A stretch of 64,000 nucleotides of DNA from Actinomycetota bacterium (lineage in GTDB: Bacteria > Actinomycetota > Actinomycetes > Actinomycetales > Microbacteriaceae), in the NCBI GenBank assembly GCA_030840335.1, contig JAUZFR010000188.1:1-64000 (forward strand). The letters run 5' to 3'. The notes below the pieces were generated by a model, which saw only the letters and a list, made by a program, of their open reading frames with translations, did not search any database and was not told the origin of the DNA. Below, one piece after another: positions 44,064-57,059 of this stretch. The first letter of the stretch is position 1; the number at the start of each line of letters is the position of its first letter. The position numbers were made by a program, and so were the translations under genes.

Positions 44064-44807
44064 CTATTTCCACACGTATTCGGTGGCCGCGTAACCAGCC
44101 TCGGCGGGAATCGTGATTACGCGCGCCCCATCGTCGCGCACGTCGATTCGTGGTTCAACCGTGTACGGCGTGCGCGATTGCGCCGCCGCGATGGCGCCGC
44201 CGGTGTCGGAACTCTCGGCCAGTCGCGCGAGGTTCATGAGGGTCGGGAACAGGATGGATTGCTCTCCATCCGTCGCACGCGAAACGGCATCGGATGGGCC
44301 AACCCACTCCACACCCACTGTTTCGGCGCCGTCCGACCACGCGACCTGACCAGGAGGCATGGCGGCGAGATAGAACCGCGTGTCGAACCGCCGGGGTTCC
44401 GCCACAGGGGTGATCCAGTGGCCGAACGGCTGGAGAGCACCGAGGTCGAGCATCGCGCCAGTTGCTTCGACGACCTCGCGGAACGCCGCGCCACGCATCC
44501 GCTCGGTCACCTGTAATGGCGCGCCGTCCGCTGCGAACCCGAGCAGGATTGAGGTCTCTTCCCAGGTTTCGCGCAGAGCGCCGATTCGTAACGCACGCTC
44601 GTCAGCGCCGAGCAGTACGTCGCCTCGCGTCAGCTGCGCCCAGGTCGGGTCGTGATCGTTCGGCTCGATCGCACCGCCGGGGAACACCAGCGCAGACCCG
44701 AATACCGCCCGCGAGTGCCGGCGCACCATGAGCACCTCGAACGGATCATCACGGGCGAGCAGAATAGTCGCCGACAGGCGAGGAGGTGGTGGATCGTTGG
44801 CAATCAC
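44064..44807 (-). CDS. NUDIX hydrolase
   Basis: VFPGGAIEPND ... ALRETWEETSILLG. Confidence 0.85.
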   Translation of the reverse strand: MIANDPPPPRLSATILLARDDPFEVLMVRRHSRAVFGSALVFPGGAIEPNDHDPTWAQLTRGDVLLGADERALRIGALRETWEETSILLGFAADGAPLQVTERMRGAAFREVVEATGAMLDLGALQPFGHWITPVAEPRRFDTRFYLAAMPPGQVAWSDGAETVGVEWVGPSDAVSRATDGEQSILFPTLMNLARLAESSDTGGAIAAAQSRTPYTVEPRIDVRDDGARVITIPAEAGYAATEYVWK

Positions 44808-44878
44808 TGAAAGGGACCCTACCCGTTCCGAGGCTCATCGACATCAGTATTGTGGGACCGAAAGCGGGAGGCCCGAGG

Positions 44879-45808
44879 ATGAGCAGCGCGACACCACGCC
44901 ATGGCTCGCGCCACCGGTGGTTCGCGCTCTTCTGGATGATCCCCGCAGCTCTCGTCGTGCTGTTTCTTGTCGTTCTCGCGGCCCGGGGTCTCCGCTCGAA
45001 TCCGTCGATTCAGTCGTTCATGCGCACCTACGACGGCCAGTCCGCGCTGCCCGCGGGCGCCCCAACGGGATTTCCGGCGTGGGTCGCTTGGCAGCATTTT
45101 CTCAGCGCATTCTTCGTGCTGTTGATCATCCGTACGGGCTGGCAGATTCGCACGACACGACGGCCGCCCGCGTACTGGACCAGAAACAACTCGGGGCGCA
45201 TTCGCACGCGTAACCCGCCGGTGCGCATCGGGCTTAACCTGTGGTTTCACCTCTGCGTGGACGTGCTGTGGGTGCTCAATGGGATTATCTTCTACATTCT
45301 GATTTTCGCGACTGGTCAGTGGGTGCGGCTCATCCCGGTGCACTGGGACGTCTTTCCCAACGCAATCACTGTGGCCATCCAGTACGCCTCGCTGTCGTGG
45401 CCGACCGAAGATGGCTGGGTCAACTACAACGCGCTGCAACTGCTCACCTACTTCGTCACCGTCTTCATAGCGGCGCCACTTGCGATTGTGACCGGCATCC
45501 GCATCGTGCCCGGGCTCGCCCACCGGCTGGCCTGGCTCGATCGGGTCTATCCGGTCTCGGTTGCCCGAGCGATCCATTTCCCGGTGATGATCTGGTTCGT
45601 CGCCTTCACCGTCGTGCACGTGACTCTCGTGCTTGCGACCGGTGCGCTGCGCAATCTGAACCACATGTATGCGCTTCGCGACGACCAGAGCTGGATCGGG
45701 TTCTGGATCTTCGCTGCGTCGGTCGTTCTGATGGTCGTCGCGTGGGTCGCGGTTCGGCCGTCGATAGTCGCGACACTCGCATCCCTCAGCGGCTCCGTGC
45801 GCCGCTAG
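44879..45808 (+). CDS. cytochrome b/b6-type membrane protein
   Basis: Multi-TM protein with LWFHLCVDVLWVLNGIIFYILIFATGQW and IHFPVMIWFVAFTVVHVTLVLATGALRNLNHMYA. Confidence 0.75.
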   Translation: MSSATPRHGSRHRWFALFWMIPAALVVLFLVVLAARGLRSNPSIQSFMRTYDGQSALPAGAPTGFPAWVAWQHFLSAFFVLLIIRTGWQIRTTRRPPAYWTRNNSGRIRTRNPPVRIGLNLWFHLCVDVLWVLNGIIFYILIFATGQWVRLIPVHWDVFPNAITVAIQYASLSWPTEDGWVNYNALQLLTYFVTVFIAAPLAIVTGIRIVPGLAHRLAWLDRVYPVSVARAIHFPVMIWFVAFTVVHVTLVLATGALRNLNHMYALRDDQSWIGFWIFAASVVLMVVAWVAVRPSIVATLASLSGSVRR

Positions 45809-45969: not shown

Positions 45970-46950
45970 CTAGCTCGGCGTCTGCCGCCGTCGTGCTTCG
46001 ATCGCGCTAATCAGCTGGGGCACAACCGAGAAGACATCCCCGACGACCCCGAAATCGGCGATCTCGAAAATCGGAGCGCGCGCATCCTTGTTGATCGCCA
46101 CAATCGTTCGCGCGCTCTGCATTCCTGCCCGGTGCTGGATAGCGCCCGAGATCCCGAGCGCGATGTAGAGGCCGGGCGATACCGTGACGCCGGTCTGGCC
46201 CACCTGCAGGTTGTGCTCGCAGTATCCTGCGTCGACCGCAGCTCTGGATGCGCCGATGGCCGCCCCGAACACGTCGGCAAGTTGCTCGACGAGGGCGAAA
46301 TTCTCCTTCGAGCCGAGTCCGCGCCCGCCCGAGACGACGACCTCTGCCGACTGCAGGTCAGGGCGCGCCGTGACCTCGGGGTCGTCGTGGCGGGCCGTGA
46401 TGACCGTGGTCGGAGCCGAGTCACCGGCGATGTCGAGCGACCGAACCGTGCCCGCCGCGGGCGGCGCAACCCCGTCGACAGAGAGCGGACGCAGGGAGAT
46501 CACGGGGATTCCCTTTGCGGCGATCGCTGTCACCCTGTATGCCCCGCCGAACGCCTCTTGCGTGACGACCGGCCCCGCGTTCCCGAGTACGAGTCCCGTG
46601 ACATCGCTGTGGTAGCCACCGCCAACCCGTATGGCAAGTCTCGCGGCGGCTTCCCGGCTGTCGACCGAGTTGCCCACAATCACCGCCGACACAGTGCCGG
46701 ATGCGAGGATCGCGGCCTGAAGCGCGGCAACCTGCGGCGTCACCACGAGCGAACCGGCGTTCGCGACGGTGGCGACGAACACGGTCGTCGCGCCGAGGCT
46801 CGCAAGAGACGCCTCGAGGTCGTCGCTTCCCGGCTCGACCACGAGAACCGCTGCCGGGTCGCCGAGCAGCGCCGCGGCCGCGAGAAGCTCGGCCGTCGTG
46901 GTGGCGAGAATCCCCTCGGCATGTTCCACGAGAACGAGTACGTCAGACAC
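45970..46950 (-). CDS. etfA: electron transfer flavoprotein alpha subunit
   Basis: [72 protein letters not shown]. Confidence 0.95.
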
Positions 46951-46964
46951 CGGAACCTCCAGTT

Positions 46965-47744
46965 CTAGAGGAGTTTCGCGGAGGCGAGATAGTCGGCGAG
47001 CTGGGTCGCGGCCGTGCCATCGTCCCTGATGATCGTTCCGGCGGCGCGCGGCGGGCGAACGGTAACGCTTGTCACGACCGACCCCGAGTTCTCCGCGCCC
47101 GCAAAGTCGTCGGGCGAGCCGAGCTCGTTCAGATCGACCGTTTCGAGCGGCTTCTTCTTCGCGGCCATGATGCCCTTGAAGCTCGGGAACCTCGCCTCGG
47201 CGATTTGTTCGGTGACCGAGACGACGGCGGGGAGTTTCGCGCTCACCTCCAGGTAGCCGGTGCCGGTCATCCGCTCGCCGGTGACGGTGTCGCCCTCGAC
47301 CGCGAGCGTTCGCAGGAAGGTGAGCTGCGATAGCCCGAGCCGCTCGGCGAGCATGGCGGGAACGGCTGCCGTGCGACCATCGGTCGATTCGTTGCCCGCG
47401 ATCACGAGATCAAAACTCCCGAGAGCGAGCGCAGCCGCGATCGCCGCCGAGGTCTGTACCGCGTCGGAACCGACCAGGCGGTCATCCAGGATGTGAATTC
47501 CGTTGTCAGCCCCCATCGCGAGGGATCTGCGAACCGCTTCGCGGGCGCTCTTCGGCCCCATAGTTACCGTGGTCACGGTCGACCCGGGCACTGATTCCCT
47601 GAGGAGGAGGGCCGCCTCGACCGCCTTCTCGTTGATTTCATCCGTAACGTTGTCACCGGCCCGCACGACCCGCTTGGTTTGCGGATCGAGTTGGCGATCC
47701 CCCCAGGTGTCGGGGACTTCCTTCACGAGTACCGCGATTTTCAT
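46965..47744 (-). CDS. etfB: electron transfer flavoprotein beta subunit
   Basis: [48 protein letters not shown]. Confidence 0.95.
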
Positions 47745-47762: not shown

Positions 47763-47807
47763 CATCCAACAATTTACTAGGAATTAGTTGGATGTCCTAG
47801 TAAATTG
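47763..47807. promoter_or_regulatory. two interlocked perfect inverted repeats in the etfB/ACAD divergent promoter
   Basis: CATCCAAC (47763-47770)/GTTGGATG (47787-47794); CAATTTACTAGGA (47770-47782)/TCCTAGTAAATTG (47795-47807). Confidence 0.8.
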
Positions 47808-47835
47808 TCGCTCAGGGCAATCGAGAGAAGCCGAG

Positions 47836-48972
47836 ATGTTCGAATACACCGACGAGCAGCGGTCCATCGTTCATATGGTTCGGCAATTTGCCGCCGAATC
47901 GCTCGCGCCGCACGCGGCCGAGTGGGACGAGAGCCACTACTTTCCCGTCGAGGTTCTCCGCCAGGCCGGCGAACTCGGCATGGGAGCTATCTACTCGAAG
48001 GAGCAGTTCGGCGGATCAGGGCTGAGCCGGCAGGACTCGGTGCTGATCTTCGAAGAACTGGCCAAAGGCGACACCACGATCGCGGCCTACATCTCGATCC
48101 ACAACATGGTGGTCTGGATGATCGACACGTTTGGCAACGAGAGCCAGTGCGCCGAATGGGTGCCGCAGCTCGCCTCGATGGAGACGCTCGGAAGCTACTG
48201 TCTGACCGAACCGGGTGCGGGCTCCGACGCCGCGGCGCTGACGACACGAGCTGTTCGCGACGGAGGCGACTACCTGCTCAACGGGGTGAAGCAGTTCACT
48301 TCCGGCGCGGGCTCCTCGGGCATCTACGTGGTCATGGCGCGCACGGCAGATTCCGGCAGCCATGGCATCAGCGCCATCGTTGTTCCTGACGGGACACCCG
48401 GGCTCTCGTTTGGACCTCTCGAGAAGAAGATGGGCTGGCACGCACAGCCCACGCGCCAGGTGATCTTCGAAGACGCCCGCGTGCCCGCAATCAATCTGCT
48501 CGGTGCGGAGGGCGACGGCTTCGGAATCGCCCTTAGCGCCCTGGATGGCGGGCGAATCAACATGGGTGCGTGTTCACTCGGCGGCGGACAGGCCGCCCTC
48601 GACCAAGCGGTTCGATACCTCAAGGATCGTGTCGCCTTCGGCAAACCGCTCATCGAACAGGAAGCTCTGCTCTTCCAGCTGGCCGACATGGATACTGAAC
48701 TCGAGTCCGCGCGTACGCTGCTGTGGCGGGCGGCGGAGGCGATAGATCGTGGCTCCGGCGACGTGGTCAGATTGTGTGCCATGGCCAAGCGCGTCGCAAC
48801 GGATGCGGGCTTCGCGGTTGCAAATGCCGCGCTGCAGTTGCACGGTGGGTACGGGTACCTTTCGGAATATGGACTCGAACGGATCGTGCGGGACCTCCGC
48901 GTTCACCAGATCCTTGAAGGAACGAACGAAATCATGCGCTTGATCGTTGGTCGCTCACTGGCCGAGGCCTAG
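47836..48972 (+). CDS. acyl-CoA dehydrogenase (isobutyryl-CoA dehydrogenase-like)
   Basis: FEYTDEQRSIVHMVRQFAAESLAPHAAEWDE ... LTEPGAGSDAAAL ... HGGYGYLSEYGLERIVRDLRVHQILEGTNEIMRLIVGR. Confidence 0.95.
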   Translation: MFEYTDEQRSIVHMVRQFAAESLAPHAAEWDESHYFPVEVLRQAGELGMGAIYSKEQFGGSGLSRQDSVLIFEELAKGDTTIAAYISIHNMVVWMIDTFGNESQCAEWVPQLASMETLGSYCLTEPGAGSDAAALTTRAVRDGGDYLLNGVKQFTSGAGSSGIYVVMARTADSGSHGISAIVVPDGTPGLSFGPLEKKMGWHAQPTRQVIFEDARVPAINLLGAEGDGFGIALSALDGGRINMGACSLGGGQAALDQAVRYLKDRVAFGKPLIEQEALLFQLADMDTELESARTLLWRAAEAIDRGSGDVVRLCAMAKRVATDAGFAVANAALQLHGGYGYLSEYGLERIVRDLRVHQILEGTNEIMRLIVGRSLAEA

Positions 48973-48973
48973 C

Positions 48974-50035
48974 GTGAGCGAAGACACCGGCACCGAAGTA
49001 CTGTTCTCGCGGGATCGACGGGTCGGGCACATCCTTCTGAATCGCCCGCGGGTCATGAACGCACTCACTCTCCGCATGGTCGACGAGATCGCGGCGAAGC
49101 TGGACGAGTGGGCGATCGACGACACTGTCGAAACCGTGGTCGTGTCCGGTGCGGGTGACCGCGGACTCTGCGCCGGGGGCGACATCGTCGCGCTCTATCG
49201 CCAGGTGCTCGCTGGCGGCGAGGACGCGGCTCTCTTCTGGGCGCACGAGTACGCACTCAACGCTCAAATCGCGAGATACCCGAAACCGTACGTCGCCCTG
49301 ATGGACGGCACCGTGTTCGGCGGCGGGGTCGGCGTCTCCGCCCACGGGTCGGTTCGCGTCGTGACCGAGCGCACGAAGATCGGGATGCCCGAGGTCGGCA
49401 TCGGGTTCGTGCCCGACGTTGGCGGCACCTGGCTGTTGTCTCGCGCCCCGGGTGAACTGGGCACCCACGTCGGCCTTACAGGCGGCACTTTTTCCGCTGC
49501 CGACGCCATCGAGCTTCGGCTCGCGGACTTTTTTGTTCCGAGCAACCGATTGGGAGATCTGGTTGAGGCGCTTGCCTCGATGCCAGTGTCGGATGCGCTC
49601 GCCGGATTCGCGACGGACGTGCCCGCATCCGCCCTCGCAGGCGCAAGGTCGTGGATCGACGACTGCTACGGGCTGGAGGACGCCTTCGAGATCGTGGCCA
49701 GCCTCGACGCGTCCGATGTCGCCGAGGCGCGCTACGCGGCAGACGTCATTCGGTCGAAATCCCCGACAGCCGTAGCAGTGACCCTCGAGTCATTGCGTCG
49801 CGCGCGAGCGCTCCACACACTCGAGCAAGTGCTCGACCAGGAATATCGGGTGTCGGTGCGACTAGCGGCAGGCACCGAGATGGTGGAGGGCATCCGAGCA
49901 CAGGTCATCGACAAGGATCGGCAACCGCGATGGTCACCTGCGACGCTCGCGGGCGTTGCTCGCTCCGCTGTCGAGGCGTATTTCGCCCCCGTAGGGCGCG
50001 ACGAACTCGGGCTGTTATCGCCAACAGCTCGCTGA
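48974..50035 (+). CDS. enoyl-CoA hydratase/isomerase family; 3-hydroxyisobutyryl-CoA hydrolase-like
   Basis: HILLNRPRVMNALTLRMV ... GAGDRGLCAGGDIVALY ... DGTVFGGGVGVSAHGSVRVVTERTKIGMPEVGIGFVPDVGGTWLLSR. Confidence 0.9.
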   Translation: MSEDTGTEVLFSRDRRVGHILLNRPRVMNALTLRMVDEIAAKLDEWAIDDTVETVVVSGAGDRGLCAGGDIVALYRQVLAGGEDAALFWAHEYALNAQIARYPKPYVALMDGTVFGGGVGVSAHGSVRVVTERTKIGMPEVGIGFVPDVGGTWLLSRAPGELGTHVGLTGGTFSAADAIELRLADFFVPSNRLGDLVEALASMPVSDALAGFATDVPASALAGARSWIDDCYGLEDAFEIVASLDASDVAEARYAADVIRSKSPTAVAVTLESLRRARALHTLEQVLDQEYRVSVRLAAGTEMVEGIRAQVIDKDRQPRWSPATLAGVARSAVEAYFAPVGRDELGLLSPTAR

Positions 50036-50055: not shown

Positions 50056-50949
50056 ATGAGAATTGCATTCATCGGGCTCGGGAACATGGGCGCACCCATG
50101 GCGATCAACCTGGTCAGGGCGGGCCACGATGTCGCGGGATTCGACCTTGTGCCGGCTGCGCTCGAGCACGCCCGGTCGGGCGGCGTTCCGATCACCGCTG
50201 ACGCCGCTGCCGCCGTCGCAGGTGCCGATGTGGTGCTGACGATGCTCCCGAGCGGCGAGCATGTACTCGACGCCTACCGGAACGGACTGATCGCTGCCGC
50301 GGCGCCGCATACCCTGTTCATCGACTCCTCGACGATCGATGTGGCGGACGCCCGCGCCGCTCGCGACCTCGTTGTTGCGGCGGGGCATCGGGCAATCGAT
50401 GCTCCCGTCTCCGGCGGCGTGGTCGGCGCAGAGGCGGGCACGCTCACGTTCATGGTCGGCGCAGAAGGCGATGACTTCGCGACGGCCGAACCGATCCTTA
50501 CCGTCATGGGCGGCCGTGTGGTCCACTGCGGCGGGTCCGGCGCGGGTCAGGCCGCGAAGGTCTGCAACAACATGATCCTCGGAGTCTCAATGATCGCCGT
50601 ATGCGAGGCATTCGTGCTCGGTGAGAAACTCGGGCTCACGCACGAGGCCCTGTTCGACGTGGCCTCAGCGGCCTCCGGCCAGTGCTGGGCGCTGACGACG
50701 AATTGCCCGGTGCCGGGTCCGGTACCAGCGAGTCCGGCCAACCGCGACTACCAACCCGGCTTCGCGGGAGCACTCATGGCCAAAGACCTCGGACTCGCGC
50801 TGAAGGCGGTCGAGGCGACCGGTGTCGCCGCCGAACTCGGACCGCTCGCGGCATCCATCTATCAACGATTCGCGGATGAGGGCGGCGCGGGCAAAGACTT
50901 CTCGGCAATCATCAACATCATTCGTCAAAATTCGGAGAAAGCCGCATGA
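50056..50949 (+). CDS. mmsB: 3-hydroxyisobutyrate dehydrogenase
   Basis: [30 protein letters not shown] ... [22 protein letters not shown]. Confidence 0.92.
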
Positions 50950-51722
50950 CTGACTACGACAACATCCTGCTCGAGCGGCACGGCAGGGTTGCGCTGATCA
51001 CGCTCAACCGCCCCGAGGCGCTCAATGCCCTGAACTTCGCGATGATGACCGACGTCGTTTCTGCGGCGACCGAGCTCGATCTCGACCCCGAGATCGGAGC
51101 CATCATCCTGACCGGCTCGGCGCGAGCGTTCGCTGCGGGTGCGGATATCAAGGAGATGGCGACCAGGGATTTCATGGACATGTACCTGTCCGACTGGTTT
51201 GCGGGCTGGGATCGTCTGGCGGCAGTGCGCACCCCGGTCATCGCGGCGGTGGCCGGACACGCTCTGGGTGGCGGCTGCGAGCTGGCGATGATGTGCGATT
51301 TCATCCTTGCCGCCGACACCGCCAAATTCGGCCAGCCCGAGATCAAACTCGGAGTCGTACCAGGGATTGGCGGATCACAGCGGCTCACGCGCGCCGTCGG
51401 CAAGGCCAAGGCGATGGAGATGATCCTGACCGGACGCGCGATCGACGCGGTGGAGGCGGAACGCGCGGGGCTGGTTGCACGAATTGTTCCCGCGGCCGAC
51501 CTGCTCGACGACGCGCTCGAGACCGCGACGGCGATCGCCTCCATGTCTCTTCCGGTCGCGATGATGGCCAAGGAACTCGTCAATGAGGCGTTCGAGACCC
51601 AGCTCAGGGCCGGCATCCGGTTCGAGCGCAGGGTGTTTCACTCCGCGTTCGGTCTCGATGACCAGAAGGAAGGGATGCGCGCCTTCATCGAGAAGCGCGA
51701 GCCGCGCTTCAGAAATCGATAG
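50946..51722 (+). CDS. enoyl-CoA hydratase
   Basis: [20 protein letters not shown] ... [14 protein letters not shown] ... [21 protein letters not shown]. Confidence 0.95.
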
Positions 51723-52233
51723 GACCGTCGAAGTCGCCCGCGTCTCGACGGAACCGCGCGAGCATCCTCTCGAGGTCGGTCAGTTCGTCGTCGCTGAAGC
51801 CGGAACTCGTGAAGACGGCAGAATTCAGTTCGCGGGTTGCCACGAGCACCCGGGCTCGTCCCTCCGGGGTAATCTCGATCAGCGTTGCCCGGCCATCCGT
51901 CGGATGCGGCACTCGGCGAACGAGACCGGCACGTTCGAGCCGATCGACGGCATTCGTCACGCTGGTCGGATGAACCTGGAGCCGCGCACTCGCCTTCGTC
52001 ATCGGAAGTGCGCCAGTGCGCGCAAAGCTCAGCAGGGCGAGTAACTCGAACCGCGCAAAGGTGAGGTCGAAGTTCTTGAGCACGCTCTCGATGCGCGCAA
52101 GCAGGATCTGCTGCGTTCGCATGATCGCCGTCACGGCAGCCATGCCGTCGGCTGCTTCGGCCCAGCCCCGGTCCTGCCACTGGCGCTTCGCATCGGCGAT
52201 CGGGTCGTGAGGAAGTGGAGGCGGTTGCGCCAA
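51709..52233 (-). CDS. MarR-family transcriptional regulator
   Basis: [67 protein letters not shown]. Confidence 0.9.
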
Positions 52234-53501: not shown

Positions 53502-53528
53502 CCACGCAGCTGCGACCCGACAACCGCA

Positions 53529-53561
53529 CGAGCCCGCTCCCGGCATCCGGGAGCGGGCTCG
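53529..53561 (+). terminator. strong hairpin terminator after the 54-aa ORF
   Basis: CGAGCCCGCTCCCGG-CAT-CCGGGAGCGGGCTCG, perfect 15-bp arms. Confidence 0.75.
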
Positions 53562-53640
53562 TTCGCGTTTCCGCGAAACTGGCCGAGCGCATCCGGAGGC
53601 GAGTTCGCGGCTCTTCCCGGCCCGGTAGGTTAGGCGGAGT

Positions 53641-57025: not shown

Positions 57026-57059
57026 GAGGGTCGGTTTCAGAGGCTAGAAACCGACCCTC
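57026..57059. terminator. perfect 13-bp hairpin, terminator-like
   Basis: GAGGGTCGGTTTC-AGAGGCTA-GAAACCGACCCTC. Confidence 0.6.

Follow-up and report, generated by a model that had tools for sequence, protein, structure and literature searches.

A probable 18-bp operator between divergent etfBA and acyl-CoA dehydrogenase operons points to a class-wide regulon of a structurally known MarR regulator

Introduction

Two interlocked perfect inverted repeats occupy the gap between the divergently transcribed etfB and acyl-CoA dehydrogenase genes of a Microbacteriaceae bacterium, raising the question of which element in this gap is the working unit and which regulator acts on it. A first-pass annotation of the window (the 64-kb stretch of DNA analyzed here, to which positions refer unless another locus is named) had suggested two mutually exclusive cruciforms or operators, or a two-dimer site serving both directions, and had named the MarR-family gene at 51709-52233 as the nearest candidate regulator.

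Results

The repeats and the operons that flank them

Both repeats are present and exceed chance expectation. The longer has 14-bp arms, not the 13-bp arms first described, and the divergent starts at 47744 (etfB) and 47836 (dehydrogenase) were confirmed, leaving a gap of 91 bp (Table 1). Perfect inverted repeats with arms of at least 13 bp never arose in 5,000 dinucleotide shuffles of this gap, and shuffled 64-kb windows yielded 0–1 repeats with arms of at least 12 and loops of 3–30, versus three loci in the real window. The repeat stretch is single-copy, with one match in its own 3.09-Mb assembly (an actinobacterial MAG, 88% complete), and the lack of further copies there ruled out a dispersed REP- or MITE-like repeat. 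An intrinsic terminator or attenuator was rejected because the repeats show no GC-rich stem with a T run, and an RNA element because no Rfam family matched. Elsewhere in the window, two strong perfect hairpins (53528-53562 and 57026-57059; GAGCCCGCTCCCGG.../GAGGGTCGGTTTC...) are probably terminators.

To the right of the gap, genes for an acyl-CoA dehydrogenase, a 3-hydroxyisobutyryl-CoA hydrolase, a 3-hydroxyisobutyrate dehydrogenase, and an enoyl-CoA hydratase stand together, the combination expected of a valine-catabolism operon. Judged by this gene content, the operon starting at 47836 is one for valine breakdown; the mmsB name was assigned from gene order and general knowledge. An mmsA-like aldehyde dehydrogenase gene, absent from this place in the window, comes next in G142, G080, G079, G133, G070, and G141. 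As ETF accepts electrons from acyl-CoA dehydrogenases, it is reasonable for both divergent units to be controlled jointly.

Beyond etfA, positions 44786-45808 encode a 340-residue membrane protein with weak cytochrome b561 likeness (Pfam 0.0027, below cut-off). In almost every Microbacteriaceae ETF locus read, its homolog is encoded beside etfBA, making it a candidate membrane acceptor for ETF electrons. In the window, the gene and etfBA (45970-47744) lie on opposite strands; among the relatives read, its counterpart comes after etfA in the same orientation. The difference may reflect either a local inversion or an assembly matter.

Table 1. Features of the etfB–dehydrogenase gap and neighboring genes (window coordinates; half-site and operator scores in bits).
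Feature	Sequence	Position	Strand	Basis or remark
8-bp perfect inverted repeat	CATCCAAC / GTTGGATG	47763-47770 / 47787-47794		81% over 16-nt arms
14-bp perfect inverted repeat	ACAATTTACTAGGA / TCCTAGTAAATTGT	47769-47782 / 47795-47808		arms 12 nt apart
Operator core, proposed MarR dimer site	TAGTTGGATGTCCTAGTA	47785..47802		half-sites H2+H3; 28.9 bits
Extra half-site H0	TTGTTGGA	47765..47772	-	weaker, 7.5 bits; 10 bp from H1
Extra half-site H1	TACTAGGA	47775..47782	+	perfect consensus, 15.0 bits; direct orientation, 10 bp from H2
Half-site H2	TAGTTGGA	47785..47792	+	13.2 bits
Half-site H3	TACTAGGA	47795..47802	-	15.0 bits
Proposed -10 box, acyl-CoA dehydrogenase promoter	TAAATT	47801..47806	+	inferred from conservation
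Proposed -10 box, etfB promoter, inverted copy	TAAATT	47771..47776	-	inferred from 14-bp arm identity
etfA, electron transfer flavoprotein alpha subunit		45970..46950	-	
etfB, electron transfer flavoprotein beta subunit		46965..47744	-	Pfam ETF 6.4e-34; NCBIfam
Acyl-CoA dehydrogenase, probably isobutyryl-CoA dehydrogenase		47836..48972	+	substrate from operon context
3-Hydroxyisobutyryl-CoA hydrolase		48974..50035	+	NF004127 432 bits, above cut-off
3-Hydroxyisobutyrate dehydrogenase-like (mmsB)		50056..50949	+	ORF reading; orthologs same place in relatives
Enoyl-CoA hydratase		50946..51722	+	NF004517 435 bits, above cut-off
MarR-family regulator, proposed cognate repressor		51709..52233	-	Pfam, PDB match, operator co-occurrence

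An 18-bp operator within an array of four half-sites

Within the repeats lies an 18-bp imperfect palindrome, TAGTTGGATGTCCTAGTA, that neither repeat isolates; the first-pass annotation had missed both this palindrome and the 10-bp spacing around it. The half-site is an 8-bp motif, TAsTnGGA, and the whole operator reads TAsTnGGAnnTCCnAsTA. A scan of the 91-bp gap with the half-site matrix picked out four half-sites (H0 to H3) scoring above 4 bits and no others, in the orientation <- -> -> <- and in exact 10-bp phase with 2-bp linkers. H2 and H3 face each other and compose the operator; its 28.9-bit score comes from a matrix built from 13 orthologous and tandem sites, the window's own among them. 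The H1 8-mer is found only twice in the window, counting both strands. This array by itself accounts for the interlocked repeats: inverted, H3 is identical to H1, and GTTGGA is common to H0 and H2.

The operator, not the repeat pair, is conserved

The strict pattern TASTHGGANNTCCDASTA, searched with 0 mismatches, was found in 14 of 400 Microbacteriaceae genomes. Twelve of the 14 sites lie at the promoter of an isobutyryl-CoA-dehydrogenase-like operon, with etfB divergent in 10; in the other two (G080 and G142), etfB is located elsewhere. Of the remaining sites, the one in G286 separates etfB from an operon led by aldehyde dehydrogenase, and the one in G263 separates a MarR gene from a gene of the methylmalonyl-CoA mutase family. 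Some of these promoters supplied the pattern, and their matches are present by construction; what is informative is the near-absence of the operator elsewhere, its presence at five further dehydrogenase promoters (G193, G278, G311, G341, and G367), and its occurrence in G263 and G286. The closest named EtfB is that of Cryobacterium psychrotolerans (73%), whose orthologous promoter holds TACTAGGACATCCGACGC. A relaxed search of the window's own genome returned only the window site and one site with a single mismatch, TACTCGGATGTCCGAGGA, at G000:C189:16960-16977 (L133).

Five other genomes of the window's genus (G001-G005) carry neither the MarR nor the strict operator. G001 and G004, the two within the dehydrogenase sample, also lack a close dehydrogenase ortholog, and G002 and G005 keep EtfB at 71-73%. 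The cluster may have been lost patchily or gained horizontally.

What orthologous promoters conserve is a single 18-bp operator, at times doubled in tandem, rather than the repeat pair. The interlocked pair recurs in none of the other orthologous promoters read, an outcome that the first-pass annotation had itself named as counting against its reading; this weakens the proposal that the two repeats work as a mutually exclusive pair and leaves the operator reading standing. Direct switching of expression by competing cruciforms or hairpins is accordingly hard to credit: both pairs are perfect and overlapping, and the 14-bp stem is strong as single-stranded DNA (-11.5 kcal/mol, z -4.9), but what relatives keep is the operator, and transcription is predicted to start downstream of the repeats.

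In other genera, the operator occurs once at the orthologous dehydrogenase promoters of G079, G141, G193, G278, G311, G341, and G367. Tandem copies at this promoter are spaced 20 bp apart in G070 and G133, in the same phase as the window's array, and 22 bp apart in G080 and G142; further tandem pairs have spacings of 20 bp (G196, near that promoter), 22 bp (G743), and 26 bp (G477). H0 and H1 occupy the second-operator place of G070 and G133, in the same register and in the opposite orientation. These arrangements bring up a compound operator in which a second MarR dimer, contacting the half-sites at 47765 and 47775 or sitting next to them, would bind cooperatively 20 bp away and give tighter or ordered control of both directions. 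H1 matches the consensus perfectly, H0 matches it fairly, and both keep the exact 10-bp phase. However, the two point away from each other and so form no standard dimer site, an 18-mer that includes H1 reaches at best 7.7 bits (47775-47792) vs 28.9 for the operator, and single operators seem enough in G079, G141, G193, G341, G311, and G367. We regard binding by two dimers as an unlikely, if credible, reading.

The left 20 bp (CATCCAAC and AATTTACTAGGA) match two blocks on the right exactly as reverse complements, with the order of the blocks swapped; this hints at a local duplication accompanied by inversion. The left copy is absent from L014 and most relatives. The left arm may be a mere by-product of this event with no function of its own, a reading we find somewhat doubtful: its strict 10-bp phasing and the second, still intact -10 copy on the etfB side seem to have been maintained, and a similar TACTAGGA-AC-TAGTTGTA-type stretch stands between etfB and marR in G080, with a near-copy in G142. 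The extra half-sites could serve as accessory contacts, form part of a private etfB promoter, or be a relic.

In G080 and G142, TACAACTAGTTCCTA[GC]TA is also conserved between etfB and marR (L166 around 2062; L168 around 1388). It resembles window positions 47775-47792 in the inverted sense and is a possible variant operator for marR itself.

The linked MarR is the likely cognate regulator

The protein encoded at 51709-52233 contains a MarR winged-helix domain (PF12802, MarR_2, 45.5 bits, cut-off 27; PF01047, MarR, 41.7 bits, cut-off 24.6). At E <= 1e-35, its orthologs were called in 46 of the 400 Microbacteriaceae genomes, including all 14 with the operator (P about 1e-14, a value that ignores kinship of the genomes). 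The MarR gene adjoins the dehydrogenase cluster, etfBA, or both in many genomes. No regulator gene shared across the 20-kb operator loci was found, a result that first counted against MarR until whole-genome searches reversed it. The window's own MarR gene has no operator site upstream, so autoregulation was not seen in the window. At the thresholds used, no site was detected in G012, G078, G122, G053, G396, and G272, which have the MarR and the dehydrogenase cluster; several "operator-negative" MarR genomes hold a lower-scoring, degenerate site at the expected position.

The association extends across the class. A member of the MarR family was found in 266 of 395 Actinomycetia genomes. The strict operator turned up in 155 of 390, and the reversed pattern used as a control gave hardly any matches. 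MarR was found in 154/155 class genomes with the operator vs 108/235 without the strict operator, again ignoring kinship. Class operators usually lie beside mutase, valine-cluster, or ETF genes, and outside Microbacteriaceae their center is mostly CG. Nocardia, Mycobacterium, and others gave no site of at least 16 bits at their EtfB loci, so the ETF link is specific to Microbacteriaceae. In family f11, the operator lies at most 20 kb from MarR on the same contig in all 21 genomes for which the operator's place was listed, and where examined it precedes an operon of aldehyde dehydrogenase, dehydrogenase, and mmsB genes. Many other genomes show the order MarR–operator–acyl-CoA mutase (for example, L283-L286), including ones whose MarR is nearly identical to the structurally characterized protein 4b8x. 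Loci L287-L292 contain MarR, mmsB, dehydrogenase, aldehyde dehydrogenase, and the operator. That the arrangement varies between unrelated families speaks against mere linkage.

The choice of MarR as candidate regulator is therefore well supported by its orthologs in the operator-bearing genomes of family and class and by its frequent adjacency, and these sequence patterns make the site very probably the operator of the linked MarR. We consider it quite improbable that the operator serves some other regulator encoded outside the neighborhood, with MarR merely co-occurring. MarR is distant from the operator in G079, G141, G193, and G341, and co-occurrence alone is no proof of binding; against this stand the near-perfect class-wide co-occurrence, the repeated adjacency in different arrangements, and the lack of any other regulator common to operator-bearing loci.

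Promoters and a proposed mechanism

A sigma-70 consensus scan of the region returned no promoter, so the proposed -10 boxes rest on conservation. Directly after the operator, 9 of 13 orthologous promoters read TA-AATT and 2 read TA-TTCT; the candidate box overlaps the operator's edge in 11 of 13, its first two bases being the operator's last two. The box precedes the ATG by 6-8 nt in G080 and G142, a spacing typical of leaderless transcripts.

The best explanation of the whole, in which we have good confidence, is a MarR operator region that shuts both promoters and is released by a pathway intermediate. A MarR dimer would bind the palindrome at 47785-47802 between the divergent etfBA and dehydrogenase/hydrolase/mmsB/hydratase operons. 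There it would overlap the beginning of the -10 box for the dehydrogenase (47801-47806) and, on the etfB side, the -35/spacer region (-10 at 47776-47771), shutting both promoters together. The earlier suggestion of a region controlling both directions is supported. MarR probably acts as a repressor. Its release would be triggered by a pathway intermediate, presumably a branched-chain acyl-CoA; assigning the ligand to the acyl-CoAs is tentative, and the branched-chain guess comes from the pathway and from mutase targets elsewhere. The half-sites at 47765 and 47775 would provide accessory contacts or be a by-product of copying a half-operator and -10 box for etfB. It is also conceivable, though improbable, that the four-half-site array lets MarR dimers take alternative registers, such that occupancy of 47785-47802 shuts the dehydrogenase promoter and partial occupancy of 47765-47782 tunes etfB.

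Discussion

The best PDB match of the window MarR is 4b8x (6.5e-40 over 141 residues, 29-169). The two proteins are ~50-53% identical and likely orthologous. Their recognition-helix segment, VHPTSVTN, is nearly invariant, which fits an operator shared by the window MarR and 4b8x-type MarR proteins. Genomes with a 4b8x-like MarR have the order MarR–operator–mutase and the same 18-bp operator as the window. The window differs in that its MarR gene is found where a valine-type acyl-CoA operon ends, with the operator at the etfB/dehydrogenase promoter. We take 4b8x to be Sco5413, encoded near icmA/SCO5415.

MarR repressors of catabolic genes that are released by small ligands include PcaV, HcaR, and CouR. 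The system proposed here resembles them as a one-component repressor beside its presumed catabolic target operon, with a palindromic operator over the promoter and expected release by a metabolite. It differs in that their ligands are aromatic acids or aromatic acyl-CoAs, whereas the window pathway handles branched-chain acyl-CoAs and its ligand is a guess. Another streptomycete MarR, SCO3205 of S. coelicolor, is similar in having two nearby pseudopalindromic operators (consensus and SPR), with recognition helices in consecutive major grooves (PMC3737563). Its consensus, TTnAAnnnTCAA, differs from the window type.

The title of the 2013 Sco5413 paper, as cited in PMC3737563 and PMC9739823, describes a widespread actinomycete MarR of unknown function. 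SCO5413 is among the regions bound by NdgR in ChIP-seq (PMC4340878). NdgR is a regulator of branched-chain amino-acid metabolism, and its binding there is a possible link to branched-chain amino-acid control. Our literature search, made mostly among papers available without subscription, found no report of the operator motif or of a MarR for a valine-type pathway.

The operator at this locus appears real, specific, and ordinary in kind, and it points to a class-wide regulon of a structurally known MarR. Were the alternative-register reading true, one regulator would produce two outputs at different thresholds, a local refinement of an undescribed class-wide branched-chain acyl-CoA regulon under a Sco5413-type MarR. 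In streptomycetes, the supply of isobutyryl-CoA and methylmalonyl-CoA also feeds polyketide and branched fatty-acid synthesis. For a MarR whose 4b8x/Sco5413 representative was published as being of unknown function, our analysis offers a concrete 18-bp operator and a candidate pathway comprising branched-chain acyl-CoA oxidation, acyl-CoA mutases, and electron transfer flavoprotein, and the role of this structurally known regulator is now open to testing.
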